Below, in pieces: positions 55,040 through 60,001 of a stretch of 62,675 nt of DNA. Below the pieces are notes generated by a model, which did no database searches, had not been told where the DNA came from, and saw nothing but the letters and a program-made list of their open reading frames with translations. The DNA is from Candidatus Thioglobus sp. (GTDB lineage Bacteria > Pseudomonadota > Gammaproteobacteria > PS1 > Pseudothioglobaceae), in the NCBI GenBank assembly GCA_028228555.1, contig JAOJBP010000009.1, positions 1-62,675 of the forward strand. The letters are read 5' to 3'. Every line of letters starts with the position of its first letter. Within the stretch, counting starts at the first letter, position 1. Made by a program: the position numbers and the translations under genes.

Positions 55040-55070
55040 AAAAACCGCATCCATTGATGCGGTTTTTTTT
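55040..55070 (+). terminator. Rho-independent terminator of the aldehyde dehydrogenase gene
   Basis: AAAAACCGCAT (55040-55050) pairs with ATGCGGTTTTT (55057-55067) around a six-base loop, followed by a run of eight T starting in the stem. It overlaps the stop codon of the convergent 93-residue gene, which it may also terminate. Confidence 0.87.
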
Positions 55071-55350
55071 AATTTAAAGTTTTCTTTAAATCATCAATAG
55101 AAAAACTTTGAACAGTTTGTTCGTCAGTATAAACTGGCTTCATTTTAGTATGAGTACCAGCTTGTTTTTCAATTTCAGTTTGACGAGAAGTAACAAGATT
55201 TAAACAATCAGTAATCATTTTTTGTGTGTTTTCAGTCAATGGATGACGCAGGCCTGGCTTGGTCATGGTGTCTTTTGCAACTGAGATTAGGGTTTTTCTC
55301 ATGGCACTTAGCATTCTAACTTCTAAATCGGGTGTATTGGTATCACTCAT
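55069..55350 (-). CDS. Conserved small protein coupled to nagZ, function unknown
   Basis: A 93-residue soluble helical protein. The N-terminal half (DLEVRMLSAMRKTLISVAKD, then KPGLRHPLTENTQKMITDCL) looks like a small family found in gammaproteobacteria and sometimes mislabelled segregation/condensation protein A; I cannot confirm a function. The sequence has no signal peptide or membrane segment. Its ATG overlaps the nagZ stop by four bases, making it the last gene of the peptidoglycan-recycling run. Confidence 0.7.
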   Translation of the reverse strand: MSDTNTPDLEVRMLSAMRKTLISVAKDTMTKPGLRHPLTENTQKMITDCLNLVTSRQTEIEKQAGTHTKMKPVYTDEQTVQSFSIDDLKKTLN

Positions 55351-56333
55351 AATAAGCTCTTAATAGTTTCTAAATGTTGTAAGTGGGTTATTTTATCGGA
55401 TTTATACCTTCTATTACCTTGCATTGATTGTAGCTTTTCATTCGAACCCCAATCTTGATCAATGACCTCTAATAGCATCTCTGGATGATTGCAAATCAAC
55501 ACCATATCACAACCACTATCTAGGGAAATTTTCACACGGTCTTTAATATTCTCAATAAATAAAGCGCCCTGCATTGATAAATCATCACTAAAAACAACCC
55601 CATCAAAACCCAGCTTACTTTTTAAAATATCTTGAATCCAAACATTAGAAAATCCTGCAGGCTTATCATCTACCTTTGAATATATTACATGTGCAGGCAT
55701 AACTGCATCAAGACCTTCATCAATCAAATCTTTAAAAGTCACCATGTCTTGGTAAATTTCTTTTGCAGGACGCTCATCAATTGGCAAGTCTATATGTGAA
55801 TCTAATGAGACATATCCATGCCCTGGAAAGTGCTTACCAACACACTTCATTCCAGCTCTATGCATACCTATAATTAACGCCTGTGCTAATTTAACAATTG
55901 CATCAGGATTTGAGTGAAATGCGCGGTCTCCAATCACTGAAGAATTACCATAATCCATATCAAGCACAGGTGCAAAAGAAAAATCTACATCAATTTCTAA
56001 TAACTCATACGCCAGAATAAAGCCACATGAACAAGCATATTTTATTGCTTTTTTGGGCTTTTTATCGTAAAGCTCACCCAGCTTTGACATGGCTGGCAGA
56101 TGCGTAAATCCTTCTTTAAAACGCTGAACTCTTCCACCTTCATGATCAACAGAAATTAAGATATTTGGATTAACCGCTCTAATGGAGCTAATCAGCTGCT
56201 TAACTTGATCAATCGATTCAAAGTTACGGCTAAATAAAATAACACCGCCAATACTGGGTTTTGCTAATTGTGCTTGTTCTAACTCTGTCAATGTCAGTCC
56301 TGACACATCCATCATGATTGGTCCTAGATTCAT
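55347..56333 (-). CDS. nagZ: Beta-N-acetylhexosaminidase NagZ
   Basis: NagZ removes N-acetylglucosamine from anhydro-muropeptides in the cytoplasm during cell-wall recycling. The 328 residues (341 in E. coli) show the GH3 signature: GGVILFSRNF, ISVDHEGGRVQRF, SFAPVLDMDYG, and KHFPGHGYVSLDSHIDLP with the catalytic histidine. The nucleophile aspartate is in FSDDLSMQGA (near residue 247). It lies seven bases after ampG, which imports its substrate. Confidence 0.95.
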   Translation of the reverse strand: MNLGPIMMDVSGLTLTELEQAQLAKPSIGGVILFSRNFESIDQVKQLISSIRAVNPNILISVDHEGGRVQRFKEGFTHLPAMSKLGELYDKKPKKAIKYACSCGFILAYELLEIDVDFSFAPVLDMDYGNSSVIGDRAFHSNPDAIVKLAQALIIGMHRAGMKCVGKHFPGHGYVSLDSHIDLPIDERPAKEIYQDMVTFKDLIDEGLDAVMPAHVIYSKVDDKPAGFSNVWIQDILKSKLGFDGVVFSDDLSMQGALFIENIKDRVKISLDSGCDMVLICNHPEMLLEVIDQDWGSNEKLQSMQGNRRYKSDKITHLQHLETIKSLL

Positions 56334-56340
56334 AGTTTCT

Positions 56341-57885
56341 CTAATTGATATAAGGTTTCACTTTGTACACTAAATACAAAATAGGTAACCCGATTAAGGT
56401 GGTTATGATAAAAAATTGACTATAGCCAAATGCTTCAACAATACCACCCGAATAGCCGCCAAAAATTTTGGGTAGAAGTGTCATAAGCGAGGAGAAAATG
56501 GCATACTGAACGGCAGTAAATTTAATATTAGTCAAGCTAGATAAGAAGGCAATAAAGGCTGCACTAGCCAATCCAGCAGACAAATTATCCATGGTAATAG
56601 TTACATAAAGCCAAGTTATATTGTGGCCAACATTTGCCAAAACAATAAAAAGTAAATTGGTTAGCGCAGAAAGTGCTGCCCCCAAGAATAACACCCTAAA
56701 CACACCCCATTTGATTGCCATTAACCCGCCTAAAAACCCTCCAGCGATGGTCATAAATAAACCAAAGGTTTTAGACACGGTGGCAATTTCTATTTTCGTA
56801 AAGCCCATATCTTGATAAAAGATATTAGCTACAACGCCAAGCACAATATCACTAATACGATATAAGCCAATAACCGCTAATAACAACACAGCAACACTCA
56901 CTCCATATCGGCTAAAAAAATCTTTAACAGGGCTAATGTAAGTATTATTAACCATAGATTTGTTGACCACCTTAAGTTTGATCAACAGTCGAGTGGCAAT
57001 ATACGCTCCTGTAATGGCCAGTATCAATCTAATCGCACCAACAATAAACCCAGCCAGATGTTTGTTAGTAAAAATTTCCGTTAAGTTTGATTTAAGCGTT
57101 TTAACCAGCTCTGCACTAAAAATAAAGGTAGCGATAAATGCTGCCACTACGACTAAAAATAAGGCAAAAAATCGAACGTAATCTTGGGTGGAGTATTGCT
57201 CTTCACGGCGACTATGGTTGGGCTCCTTGACTAACAAGGTGGTTACCACGCCCACCATCATAACCATAATCATAACTAGATAAGTATTAGACCAGGCCGA
57301 AAAACTATACAACTCTTTGGTGGATCCAAAATAACTGGCTAAAAATAAACCACCTGCACCAGCCGCCAACATGCCAATACGATAGCCTGCAACATAAGTT
57401 GCTGAAAGCATAGACTGCATGTTCTTATCAGCTGACTCAATACGATAAGCATCAATAACAATATCTTGAGTCGCTGATGAAAAGCCTAATAAAACTGCAC
57501 CATAAGCCATAATAGTTAAGCTATCAACGCCGGCTTTTGGATCAACTGACGACATTAGTAAAATTGAACTCATGATTGCTAGTTGTGAAACCAGCATCCA
57601 GGCACGACGACGACCTAATAGTTTAGTCAGAATCGGCAAAGGTAAGCGATCTACTAATGGCGCCCAAACAAACTTAAATGAGTAACCTAATGCAGCCCAA
57701 GAAAAAAAAGTAATACTAGATTTTGCAACACCCGCCTCATTCAGCCACAGACCTAATGTGGAAAAAATAAGCAAAATCGGTACGCCTGCTGAAAATCCCA
57801 AAAATAGCATGGCAGCTACCCGAGGATGAATAAACAGTCGAAGGCTTTCTAGCACTGAATCCAAGGCATTCCGTCGTGGCGCCAT
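56341..57885 (-). CDS. ampG: AmpG-family muropeptide permease (MFS)
   Basis: AmpG imports GlcNAc-anhydroMurNAc peptides released from the wall. The 514-residue protein has 12 or more hydrophobic segments and the AmpG N-terminal pattern IHPRVAAMLFLGFSAGVP, FKFVWAPLVDRLPLP and GRRRAWML. QDIVIDAYRIES follows near residue 138. It is close to E. coli AmpG in length (491). The ATG lies 37 bases inside the rhodanese gene, and a TTG seven codons later is an alternative start. It is followed by nagZ. Confidence 0.92.
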   Translation of the reverse strand: MAPRRNALDSVLESLRLFIHPRVAAMLFLGFSAGVPILLIFSTLGLWLNEAGVAKSSITFFSWAALGYSFKFVWAPLVDRLPLPILTKLLGRRRAWMLVSQLAIMSSILLMSSVDPKAGVDSLTIMAYGAVLLGFSSATQDIVIDAYRIESADKNMQSMLSATYVAGYRIGMLAAGAGGLFLASYFGSTKELYSFSAWSNTYLVMIMVMMVGVVTTLLVKEPNHSRREEQYSTQDYVRFFALFLVVVAAFIATFIFSAELVKTLKSNLTEIFTNKHLAGFIVGAIRLILAITGAYIATRLLIKLKVVNKSMVNNTYISPVKDFFSRYGVSVAVLLLAVIGLYRISDIVLGVVANIFYQDMGFTKIEIATVSKTFGLFMTIAGGFLGGLMAIKWGVFRVLFLGAALSALTNLLFIVLANVGHNITWLYVTITMDNLSAGLASAAFIAFLSSLTNIKFTAVQYAIFSSLMTLLPKIFGGYSGGIVEAFGYSQFFIITTLIGLPILYLVYKVKPYIN

Positions 57886-58238
57886 CCATTGACATTACCA
57901 CGCTGGTCTTCTTCATCAAGATCACCTTCAAAACCACTCACAATATGGGCAATATTCGTAAACCCATTCTTAATCAGGCACTTACCCGCATCATTAGAAC
58001 GATAACCACTTCGACAAATTAAAATAATTTCAGCATCTTTATCAATATCAAACCTTGAAAAAGCTTTAATAAACTTCTCCTCATCTACTTCCCATTCTGG
58101 CTCATCTAGCCATGGAATAAGAATGGAGTTTGGCACACGCCCTACAAATTTATTTTCTGCTTCACAACGAACATCGATCAAAGTAGCGCCTTCTAGAATA
58201 AGCTTAACTGCTTTTTTTGGTAAATAATTTTTAATCAT
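57849..58238 (-). CDS. Rhodanese-domain protein
   Basis: A 129-residue single-domain rhodanese. The active-site loop is ICRSGYRSNDAGKCL (near residue 75, catalytic Cys in CRSGYR), with TLIDVRCEAE and a final NGWRHDGMPW. It is cytoplasmic, lacking a signal peptide. Such proteins carry sulfane sulfur between thiols; the partner is unknown. It overlaps the YkuD gene by four bases and ampG by 37, so the three are translationally coupled. Confidence 0.88.
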   Translation of the reverse strand: MIKNYLPKKAVKLILEGATLIDVRCEAENKFVGRVPNSILIPWLDEPEWEVDEEKFIKAFSRFDIDKDAEIILICRSGYRSNDAGKCLIKNGFTNIAHIVSGFEGDLDEEDQRGNVNGWRHDGMPWIQC

Positions 58239-58675
58239 TGAATATCAACCTCCTCACCTGCTTGAACTTGGCTAAAAAGATTAATGATATCACTATTTTT
58301 CATACGGATACAGCCTTTTGATCCGGGCTTTCCCATGGTGAATTCGTCTGCTGAGCCATGTATATAAATATATCGTTGTTTAGTATTTTTATTGTGTGAC
58401 TCAACTCCATCAAGCCAAAGAATACGAGATAAAATCCAATCTCGACCAGGTTGCTCATCAAACAGTTTTTTTGAATAAACTTCACCTGTTGGCACGCGCC
58501 CTACTAGCACCGAACCTAACTCTAAGTCATCGCCAATTTTTTCAGCAATTTTGAATTTTCCCAAAGGTGTGCAAAACGACCCTTGTATTTCACCAACGCC
58601 ATTAGCGGCGCTACTGATTAAATACACTGTATCTTTGTAAGTTAAAGTTTGATTAGCAATATTAATTGTAATCAT
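58235..58675 (-). CDS. YkuD-domain enzyme without signal peptide; candidate cytoplasmic L,D-carboxypeptidase
   Basis: A 146-residue protein that is almost entirely a YkuD catalytic domain. GVGEIQGSFCTPLGKFKI is the N-terminal substrate region, and the catalytic motif is YIYIHGSADEFTMG with GSKGCIRMKN (His, Ser-x-Gly-Cys-Ile-Arg). It starts MITINIANQTLTY with no signal peptide or membrane helix, so it should be cytoplasmic, unlike the wall-building L,D-transpeptidases. Its neighbours are ampG and nagZ. A cytoplasmic YkuD-fold L,D-carboxypeptidase (ElsL/LdcV type) is known in other gammaproteobacteria and is the best fit. Confidence 0.8.
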   Translation of the reverse strand: MITINIANQTLTYKDTVYLISSAANGVGEIQGSFCTPLGKFKIAEKIGDDLELGSVLVGRVPTGEVYSKKLFDEQPGRDWILSRILWLDGVESHNKNTKQRYIYIHGSADEFTMGKPGSKGCIRMKNSDIINLFSQVQAGEEVDIQ

Positions 58676-58684
58676 AAGAATGTG

Positions 58685-60001
58685 TTATTTGGTGAAGAGC
58701 GCAATAGATTCAACGTGGGCAGTTTGAGGGAACATATCCATCACTCCAGCCGTATCAAGCTTATAACCCAACTCAATCAGTTTAGCGGTATCGCGAGCAA
58801 GCGTTGCTGGGTTGCACGATACATACACCAAGCGCTCCACACCTAATTTTGGTAACAGCTCTACAATTTCAATGGCACCAGAGCGTGCCGGATCAATAAG
58901 TGCCTTATTATAAGTTTTGCCTCTGAACCATTCAAAGCCTTCCACCTCTTTAAATAGATCAGCTTTGTAAAAATCAGCATTGGTTATTGAGTTTTTTTCA
59001 GCATTATACTTAGCTCGTTCAATCAAGCCCAAGTCACCTTCTACACCAACGACATGTTTAGAATACTTAGCGATAGGTAGGGTGAAATTACCCAAGCCAC
59101 AAAATAGGTCAATCAGTTCATCTTGATCATTAAGCGCCAACATTTCTAGAGCTAGGTTGATCATTTTTTGATTTAACTTAAAGTTAACCTGAGTAAAGTC
59201 AGTCGGTAAAAACTCCATAACAATATCATGATCAGGATGTGAATAAGTCAATACTGCGGGCTTATCTAGAGGTTTAACCGTATCTGCACCACCACTTTGA
59301 GTATAGAAAGTAACGTTTAATTCATTAGCACAATCTAGCAATATTTGCTCATCTTGATCGCTAAGTGGCTCCAAATGACGCAAAATTAATACTGTACTAT
59401 TTTCAGCTACAGCTACCTCAAGTTGTGGCACTTGCGATTTAATGGAAAGCTTGCCAATGCATTCGGCCAGCATTTCAAGATTGTCGCCTAAAGAGGGGTG
59501 TAGCACCTCACAACGACTCATGTTGGTAATGAAACCAGATTTCTTTTCTCTGAAACCGACTAAAACTTTTTCTTTCTTGGCAACATAACGAACGCCCAAT
59601 CTGGCTTTACGTCGATAGCCCCAGCTTTGTTCTTGTAGCGGATCAAGCCAGTGTTTTGGTGCAACTTTAGCTTGGCCAGAAAATGCATCTTTTAACCATT
59701 CTGCTTTAGCCTGGATTTGGTCTTCACTAGACAAGTGTTGAAATGAACAGCCACCACAAACACCAAACACTTCACATTTGGGCTTGATTCTATTTTCAGC
59801 AGGTTTTAGCACCTCAATTACATCAGCTTCTTCAAACTTTGCACGAGAAAAGGTGCGGTCTGCCCGCACTGTTTCACCGGGCAAGGCACCACTCACAAAG
59901 ATAACTTTTTCTTCCAAATGTGCAATGCCTCGACCTTCATGTGACAATGATTCAATGTCTAATTCGTAAGTTTTGGCCTTTGGCTTTCTTCTTCTACCCA
60001 T
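58685..60001 (-). CDS. rlmD: 23S rRNA m5U1939 methyltransferase RlmD
   Basis: RlmD (RumA) methylates U1939 in 23S rRNA. The 438 residues have an N-terminal TRAM domain (ELDIESLSHEGRGIAHLEEK) and a 4Fe-4S cysteine cluster (CEVFGVCGGCSFQHL, plus a fourth Cys in MSRCEVLHP). The SAM domain has LIDLFCGLGNFTLPIA, LIDPARSGA and the catalytic cysteine in LVYVSCNPATLARD. Length is near E. coli (433). It lies 16 bases after glcF and 9 before the YkuD gene. Confidence 0.95.
   Translation of the reverse strand: MGRRRKPKAKTYELDIESLSHEGRGIAHLEEKVIFVSGALPGETVRADRTFSRAKFEEADVIEVLKPAENRIKPKCEVFGVCGGCSFQHLSSEDQIQAKAEWLKDAFSGQAKVAPKHWLDPLQEQSWGYRRKARLGVRYVAKKEKVLVGFREKKSGFITNMSRCEVLHPSLGDNLEMLAECIGKLSIKSQVPQLEVAVAENSTVLILRHLEPLSDQDEQILLDCANELNVTFYTQSGGADTVKPLDKPAVLTYSHPDHDIVMEFLPTDFTQVNFKLNQKMINLALEMLALNDQDELIDLFCGLGNFTLPIAKYSKHVVGVEGDLGLIERAKYNAEKNSITNADFYKADLFKEVEGFEWFRGKTYNKALIDPARSGAIEIVELLPKLGVERLVYVSCNPATLARDTAKLIELGYKLDTAGVMDMFPQTAHVESIALFTK

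Follow-up and report, generated by a model that had tools for sequence, protein, structure and literature searches.

A putative cytoplasmic L,D-carboxypeptidase of the ElsL class in a peptidoglycan-recycling gene cluster of Candidatus Thioglobus, and its joint loss with Mpl in related bacteria

Introduction

The closest described system is that of Acinetobacter baumannii, in which ElsL (LdtK), characterised in 2021, is reported to be a leaderless, cytoplasmic YkuD protein that cuts disaccharide tetrapeptide and not pentapeptide (PMC8649774). Two further papers agree with its being the cytoplasmic recycling L,D-carboxypeptidase of this species (PMC8630537; PMC9239154). Among the suppressors of elsL ldtAb lethality, 21 out of 22 lie in ampG and mpl (PMC8649774). 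The same source delimits the class by the lack of a signal peptide or transmembrane helix, the lack of a peptidoglycan-binding domain, and a length of 105–200 amino acids, and it counts 788 orthologues, mostly in Gamma- and Betaproteobacteria (PMC8649774). That many organisms with ElsL have neither LdcA nor LdcV has already been noted (PMC8630537).

Here we analyse a YkuD gene in a stretch of 62,675 nucleotides from a Candidatus Thioglobus genome, which we refer to as the window; it is contig C9 of an assembly of 1.25 Mb that is 97.9% complete. The encoded protein shares with A. baumannii ElsL a single leaderless YkuD domain, the profile family, and the catalytic residues, and the two genomes are alike in having no known LdcA or LdcV alongside the other recycling genes. 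A. baumannii has a second, exported YkuD protein (LdtAb/LdtJ), whereas the window genome has none; in the window genome, elsL is clustered with ampG and nagZ. With LdcA of Escherichia coli (peptidase S66) and LdcV of Vibrio cholerae, the window protein would have its reaction and its place in the pathway in common, but LdcA is described as an unrelated serine peptidase and LdcV as a zinc-dependent metallopeptidase of the LAS superfamily, not a YkuD protein (PMC8649774). The E. coli L,D-transpeptidases (LDTs) LdtA–E have the YkuD catalytic domain with its His and SxGC motif in common with the window protein, but carry a hydrophobic leader, are longer, and form a separate branch.

Our literature searches returned nothing on peptidoglycan recycling in Vesicomyosocius, on peptidoglycan and gene loss in SUP05/Calyptogena, or on a Thioglobus carboxypeptidase and recycling; judged by their titles, none of the matches listed for ElsL and symbionts concerns ElsL in these bacteria.

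Results

A leaderless YkuD protein of the ElsL class

The features around the YkuD gene, hereafter elsL, are collected in Table 1. The reading frame runs from an ATG to a TGA, and its product matches the Pfam YkuD family (PF03734) over residues 2–145 (E = 1.9e-17; 64.6 bits, cut-off 23.4). Pfam returns YkuD families only, with no S66 or VanY/LAS metallopeptidase domain, and the length of the product fits the range given for the class. The N terminus (MITINIANQTLTYKDTVYLISSAANGVGEI) is not hydrophobic: The 12-residue hydropathy peak within the first 40 residues is 1.09, against 2.02–2.49 in the five exported E. coli LDTs. The first-pass annotation had described a complete YkuD motif without an export signal, and both hold: H106 and C122 are in place, and neither the hydropathy of the N terminus nor the upstream reading frame gives any sign of such a signal. 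The TAA that ends rlmD lies in the elsL frame, four codons upstream of the ATG, with only the codons for H-I-L in between, and this excludes an upstream start with room for a leader. A true upstream start adding a signal peptide, against which the annotation had wanted the gene checked, thus does not exist, and we discarded the idea that this is an exported LDT whose start had been overlooked.

Table 1. Coordinates of elsL and its neighbours in the window
Feature	Coordinates	Strand	Product	Basis
orf93	55069..55350	-	Conserved 93-aa ORF, overlaps nagZ	No Pfam/NCBIfam match at E 0.01; beside nagZ in relatives
nagZ	55347..56333	-	Beta-N-acetylhexosaminidase, 328 aa	NF003740, 448 bits (cut-off 207)
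ampG	56341..57885	-	Muropeptide importer, long version, 514 aa	TIGR00901, 526 bits (cut-off 350)
rhodanese	57849..58238	-	Rhodanese-domain protein, 129 aa, intact CRSGxRS active loop (C75)	PF00581, E 4.5e-10
elsL	58235..58675	-	Leaderless YkuD-domain protein, 146 aa, catalytic C122 and H106	PF03734, NF040925, tree, conserved residues
rlmD-like	58685..60001	-	RNA uracil-5-methyltransferase, directly upstream of elsL	PF05958 and TRAM

The best NCBIfam match of the product is NF040925, "cell wall-recycling L,D-carboxypeptidase ElsL" (residues 2–139, E = 9.6e-44, 149 bits), with the models for exported LDTs scoring 23–27 bits. The protein thus formally falls short of the curated cut-off of NF040925, 270 bits. 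That score is reached in none of 276 genomes of the class and none of 83 of the family; it does not tell class members apart here and seems to suit only near kin of the enzyme on which the model was founded. By sequence identity of the product, the closest named relative is a Candidatus Thioglobus isolate (93%; L002).

We aligned 75 ElsL-class proteins, including that of the window, with the five E. coli LDTs; at least two genomes (G315 and G318) entered twice, and of the 75 loci tried besides the window, one (L025, among the 30 taken from the wider class) yielded no protein and has no row in alignment or tree. H106, G107, S119, G121, and C122 are identical in all 75 ElsL-class proteins, and R124 in 72 of them. 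Five further residues (Q9, S33, D79, W80, and R84) are likewise present in all 75 and do not occur at the corresponding positions of the five LDTs. In a maximum-likelihood tree with 53 rows, the window protein falls in the ElsL group, separated from the LDTs with support of 97/95; the LDT branches in this tree are long, its bootstrap is not fully settled, the Acinetobacter enzyme is not among its rows, and the LDTs are the five of E. coli only. Grouping with exported LDTs, which the first-pass annotation had named as speaking against its reading, is not seen; the protein groups with leaderless ElsL-class proteins. On its sequence, then, the window protein is another member of the known ElsL class, and as an enzyme it would be an ordinary one.

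An AlphaFold2 model, for which 14 close sequences were used, is of mediocre quality (mean pLDDT, 70.4; pTM, 0.66), residues 92–100 and 109–118 falling below a pLDDT of 50. Its PDB matches by Foldseek are LDTs (best E = 7.1e-5, TM ~0.5), with Campylobacter jejuni Pgp2 at rank 20. The model confirms that the predicted fold is YkuD-like and says nothing on specificity. PDB sequence searches with the product gave seven matches each, none named ElsL, and the YkuD/LDT-like ones span only the C-terminal 40–50 residues.

The structural matches of the model, together with a catalytic domain that is the same as in LDTs and the lack of any other PF03734 protein in the genome, are what could be said for an L,D-transpeptidase or periplasmic trimmer (Csd6/Pgp2-like) that leaves the cytoplasm by an unrecognised route and makes or edits cross-links in the wall. 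We consider this highly improbable: The protein has no signal and no upstream start, it carries the residues and holds the tree position of the ElsL class, and its gene is clustered with ampG and nagZ and lost together with mpl (see below).

The gene cluster in the window and in relatives

The minus-strand order is rlmD, elsL, rhodanese, ampG, nagZ, and the 93-amino-acid ORF, with spacings of +9, −4, −37, +7, and −4 bases. Thus elsL and the rhodanese gene overlap by 4 bases, the rhodanese gene and ampG by 37, and nagZ and orf93 by 4, with gaps of 9 bases between rlmD and elsL and 7 between ampG and nagZ. The coordinates, and the passing of their cut-offs by AmpG and NagZ, bear out the earlier description of a YkuD gene coupled by overlaps to a rhodanese gene and ampG, followed by nagZ. 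The gene upstream we take to be rlmD.

The order elsL-rhodanese-ampG-nagZ-orf93 recurs in those family loci that reach far enough. Exceptions are the rhodanese gene, absent in L013 and in G279 (L075, L088); orf93, without a match in L013 and L097; and G313 (L086), in which elsL and nagZ are remnants only. In most family loci, elsL is preceded by the rlmD-like gene; this gene was not found beside elsL in L013, L063/L091, L056/L097, L083, and L093. We also searched flanks of up to 1.5 kb around 30 ElsL loci that belong to the class but to other families (tblastn, E ≤ 1e-4). Nine of these have nagZ, so the linkage of elsL with nagZ extends beyond the family; four have the rlmD-like gene, and none has a rhodanese gene or ampG.

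Several further features of these loci are worth recording. The product of orf93 is kept in place across the family at 66%–100% identity. AmpG occurs in two versions in the same slot: a long one of ~510 amino acids, 63%–97% identical to that of the window, and a short one (433–459 amino acids where measured) that is 30%–39% identical to it (loci L012, L056, L069, L071, L077, L079, L081–L085, L087, L089, L093, and L097 bear on the two versions). This suggests replacement in place. L013 (CACFAY010000009.1) is titled "SAR324 cluster bacterium," yet the tree groups its elsL with Candidatus Thioglobus relatives, and the title may be wrong.

The rhodanese neighbour

In 16 aligned rhodanese proteins, C75, R76, S77, G78, R80, and S81 are invariant, and catalysis by the window protein is plausible from its sequence. 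The gene lies between elsL and ampG in most family loci examined, with the active loop kept, and in the window it overlaps both. Such an arrangement would fit a cytoplasmic recycling YkuD hydrolase whose main substrate is not the tetrapeptide ending in meso-diaminopimelate–D-Ala, such as an uncommon peptide processed jointly with the rhodanese. The distribution of the rhodanese argues against this, and we regard such an enzyme as likewise highly improbable. The rhodanese gene is missing in G279 and L013, with elsL, ampG, and nagZ present; it is broken in G315, where elsL, mpl, ampG, and nagZ are intact; it is intact in five genomes with a broken elsL; and, against the 30 ElsL loci of other families with their 1.5-kb flanks, it is seen in this family only. 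Since it is absent or broken in three loci with an intact elsL, the rest of the cluster can be kept without it, and we rejected it as an obligatory partner. The most fitting reading is that of a neighbour with a function of its own. The first-pass annotation had called it unexplained; it is still without a role in the pathway, to which the comparison adds its dispensability. In G315, the gene is split into short ORFs (L087:2219-2614).

The remainder of the recycling pathway

The genome contains mpl (591 bits, cut-off 389), AmpD (172 amino acids, 254 bits, cut-off 143; without a leader on visual inspection), and AnmK (430 bits, cut-off 367). Profile searches of the genome gave no S66/LdcA match, no VanY/LdcV match, and no second PF03734 gene, elsL being the sole one. 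The absence of LdcA and the presence of ampD and mpl agree with the earlier reading; the rest of peptide recycling is there, and ElsL would fill the carboxypeptidase gap. That reading had also spoken of "ElsL/LdcV-type YkuD" carboxypeptidases, and here only the ElsL half stands, LdcV being a zinc LAS metallopeptidase (PMC8649774). An LdcV-type enzyme was rejected on this account and on the lack of a VanY match in the genome.

Within the family, a PF03734 match occurs in 44 of 83 genomes and a second PF03734 gene in none; the two matches found in each of G093, G311, and G314 are pieces of one broken gene. The pattern points to ElsL as the enzyme in use in this family of marine sulfur oxidisers, with no second YkuD protein beside it.

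ElsL and LdcA across the Gammaproteobacteria

In 276 gammaproteobacterial genomes, we counted ElsL as strong at E ≤ 1e-15 and LdcA as an S66 match above cut-off. Strong ElsL occurs in 207 genomes (a count that includes the broken gene of G093 and leaves out 31 of 238 genomes whose ElsL-profile match is weaker), above-cut-off S66 in 27 (two of the 29 genomes with LdcA matches fall below cut-off and were left out), and both in two (G043 and G153). Strong ElsL is thus found in 2 of 27 genomes with LdcA vs. 205 of 249 without it (P = 4.5e-15, Fisher's test, uncorrected for shared ancestry). At these thresholds, 44 genomes have neither. Within family f48, G170 has ElsL without LdcA, and G047 and G259 have LdcA without strong ElsL. 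These data add support to the replacement of LdcA by ElsL in the class.

Joint loss of ElsL and Mpl in the family

For the family, we kept 49 of 83 genomes (completeness ≥90%, contamination ≤5%) and dropped 34. Of the 49, 29 have an intact ElsL, that of G327 running into the end of its contig. An intact Mpl accompanies it in 28 of these 29, vs. none of the 20 genomes without (2 × 2 test, uncorrected for ancestry), and AmpG is above cut-off in all 29 and in six of the 20. The exception is G343, a draft of 98% completeness, in which ElsL and AmpG are present and no Mpl passes its cut-off. The 20 genomes without an intact ElsL belong to two genera, g220 (11) and g2 (nine).

Two of the dropped drafts, G340 (83% complete) and G350 (79%), have Mpl over cut-off and no ElsL match, which speaks against a reading as co-loss. 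Both proteins are found in 10 dropped genomes (G278, G319, G320, G323, G334, G341, G346, G347, G348, and G355; ElsL is partial in G278 and G319), and neither in 18 of g220 plus G321, G322, and G352. In G337, ElsL is present and Mpl is partial at a contig edge.

Genus g2 comprises reduced relatives, mostly with small closed genomes. In five of these (G093, G311, G312, G314, and G316), elsL is frameshifted or eroded and mpl is interrupted, and the reading frames of the rhodanese, a 433-amino-acid AmpG, NagZ, and orf93 are intact. The Mpl of G093 reaches its cut-off only in fragments separated by stops, and we scored it as broken. (The loci in which the two genes are broken or eroded together are L081–L085 and L098–L102.) Three other g2 genomes (G315, G318, and G200) keep both elsL and mpl, and in four (G309, G310, G313, and G317) the searches run show elsL, ampG, and mpl to be lost.

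A common stop at codon 9 of elsL, together with further frameshifts, is found in G311, G314, and G316. The G093 gene has no such stop and instead a later frameshift, and this difference makes at least two inactivations of elsL likely; the forks of the g2 tree are weakly supported (25, 38, 41, and 73), so that the number of independent losses cannot be fixed.

In genus g220, none of the 29 genomes, 11 of them over 90% complete, has ElsL, a PF03734 match, or Mpl over cut-off, and AmpG is missing in 28; G286 has a divergent AmpG-like gene (L094). The genus seems to be without muropeptide recycling of the ElsL/Mpl/AmpG type.

Discussion

The YkuD protein of the window is an elsL orthologue that very probably trims recycled tetrapeptides in place of LdcA. 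The first-pass annotation had proposed that the gene supplies the L,D-carboxypeptidase step right beside an importer and a glycosidase, and the sequence class, the lack of a leader, the cluster, and the lack of LdcA support this proposal. If the reaction, its substrate, its cytoplasmic location, and the order of steps follow the characterised A. baumannii enzyme, AmpG would import anhydro-muropeptides, NagZ and AmpD would strip the sugars from them, and the YkuD protein (Cys122/His106) would hydrolyse, in the cytoplasm, the bond by which the terminal D-Ala of the tetrapeptides is attached to the L-centre of meso-diaminopimelate. The resulting tripeptide would be the form that Mpl ligates to UDP-MurNAc. 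With the ElsL step sitting in one cluster with importer and glycosidase, the pathway is readable from gene order.

The gene cluster, the lack of a second YkuD gene in the family, and the joint loss of elsL and mpl make this otherwise ordinary enzyme moderately interesting. Since mpl and ampG nulls rescue the loss of elsL in A. baumannii, co-loss of elsL and mpl is what would be predicted for cells without an LDT, and the pattern in the family offers an evolutionary test of the published model, in which the re-use of tetrapeptides by Mpl makes it toxic to lose the carboxypeptidase. The co-loss could also be plain genome decay. We give an even chance to the reading that elsL was lost in g2 only jointly with mpl, the ElsL and Mpl branch being dropped as a unit and AmpG and NagZ being kept for sugar salvage or scavenging; with no further YkuD protein in the family that could relieve tetrapeptide stems, elsL would be losable only in this way. 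That the g2 bacteria are host-restricted symbionts is only a guess from their small closed genomes. If the reading of a joint loss is true, evolution in g2 would have replayed the suppressor experiment of the laboratory, and full wall recycling would have become a route for sugar salvage or scavenging.
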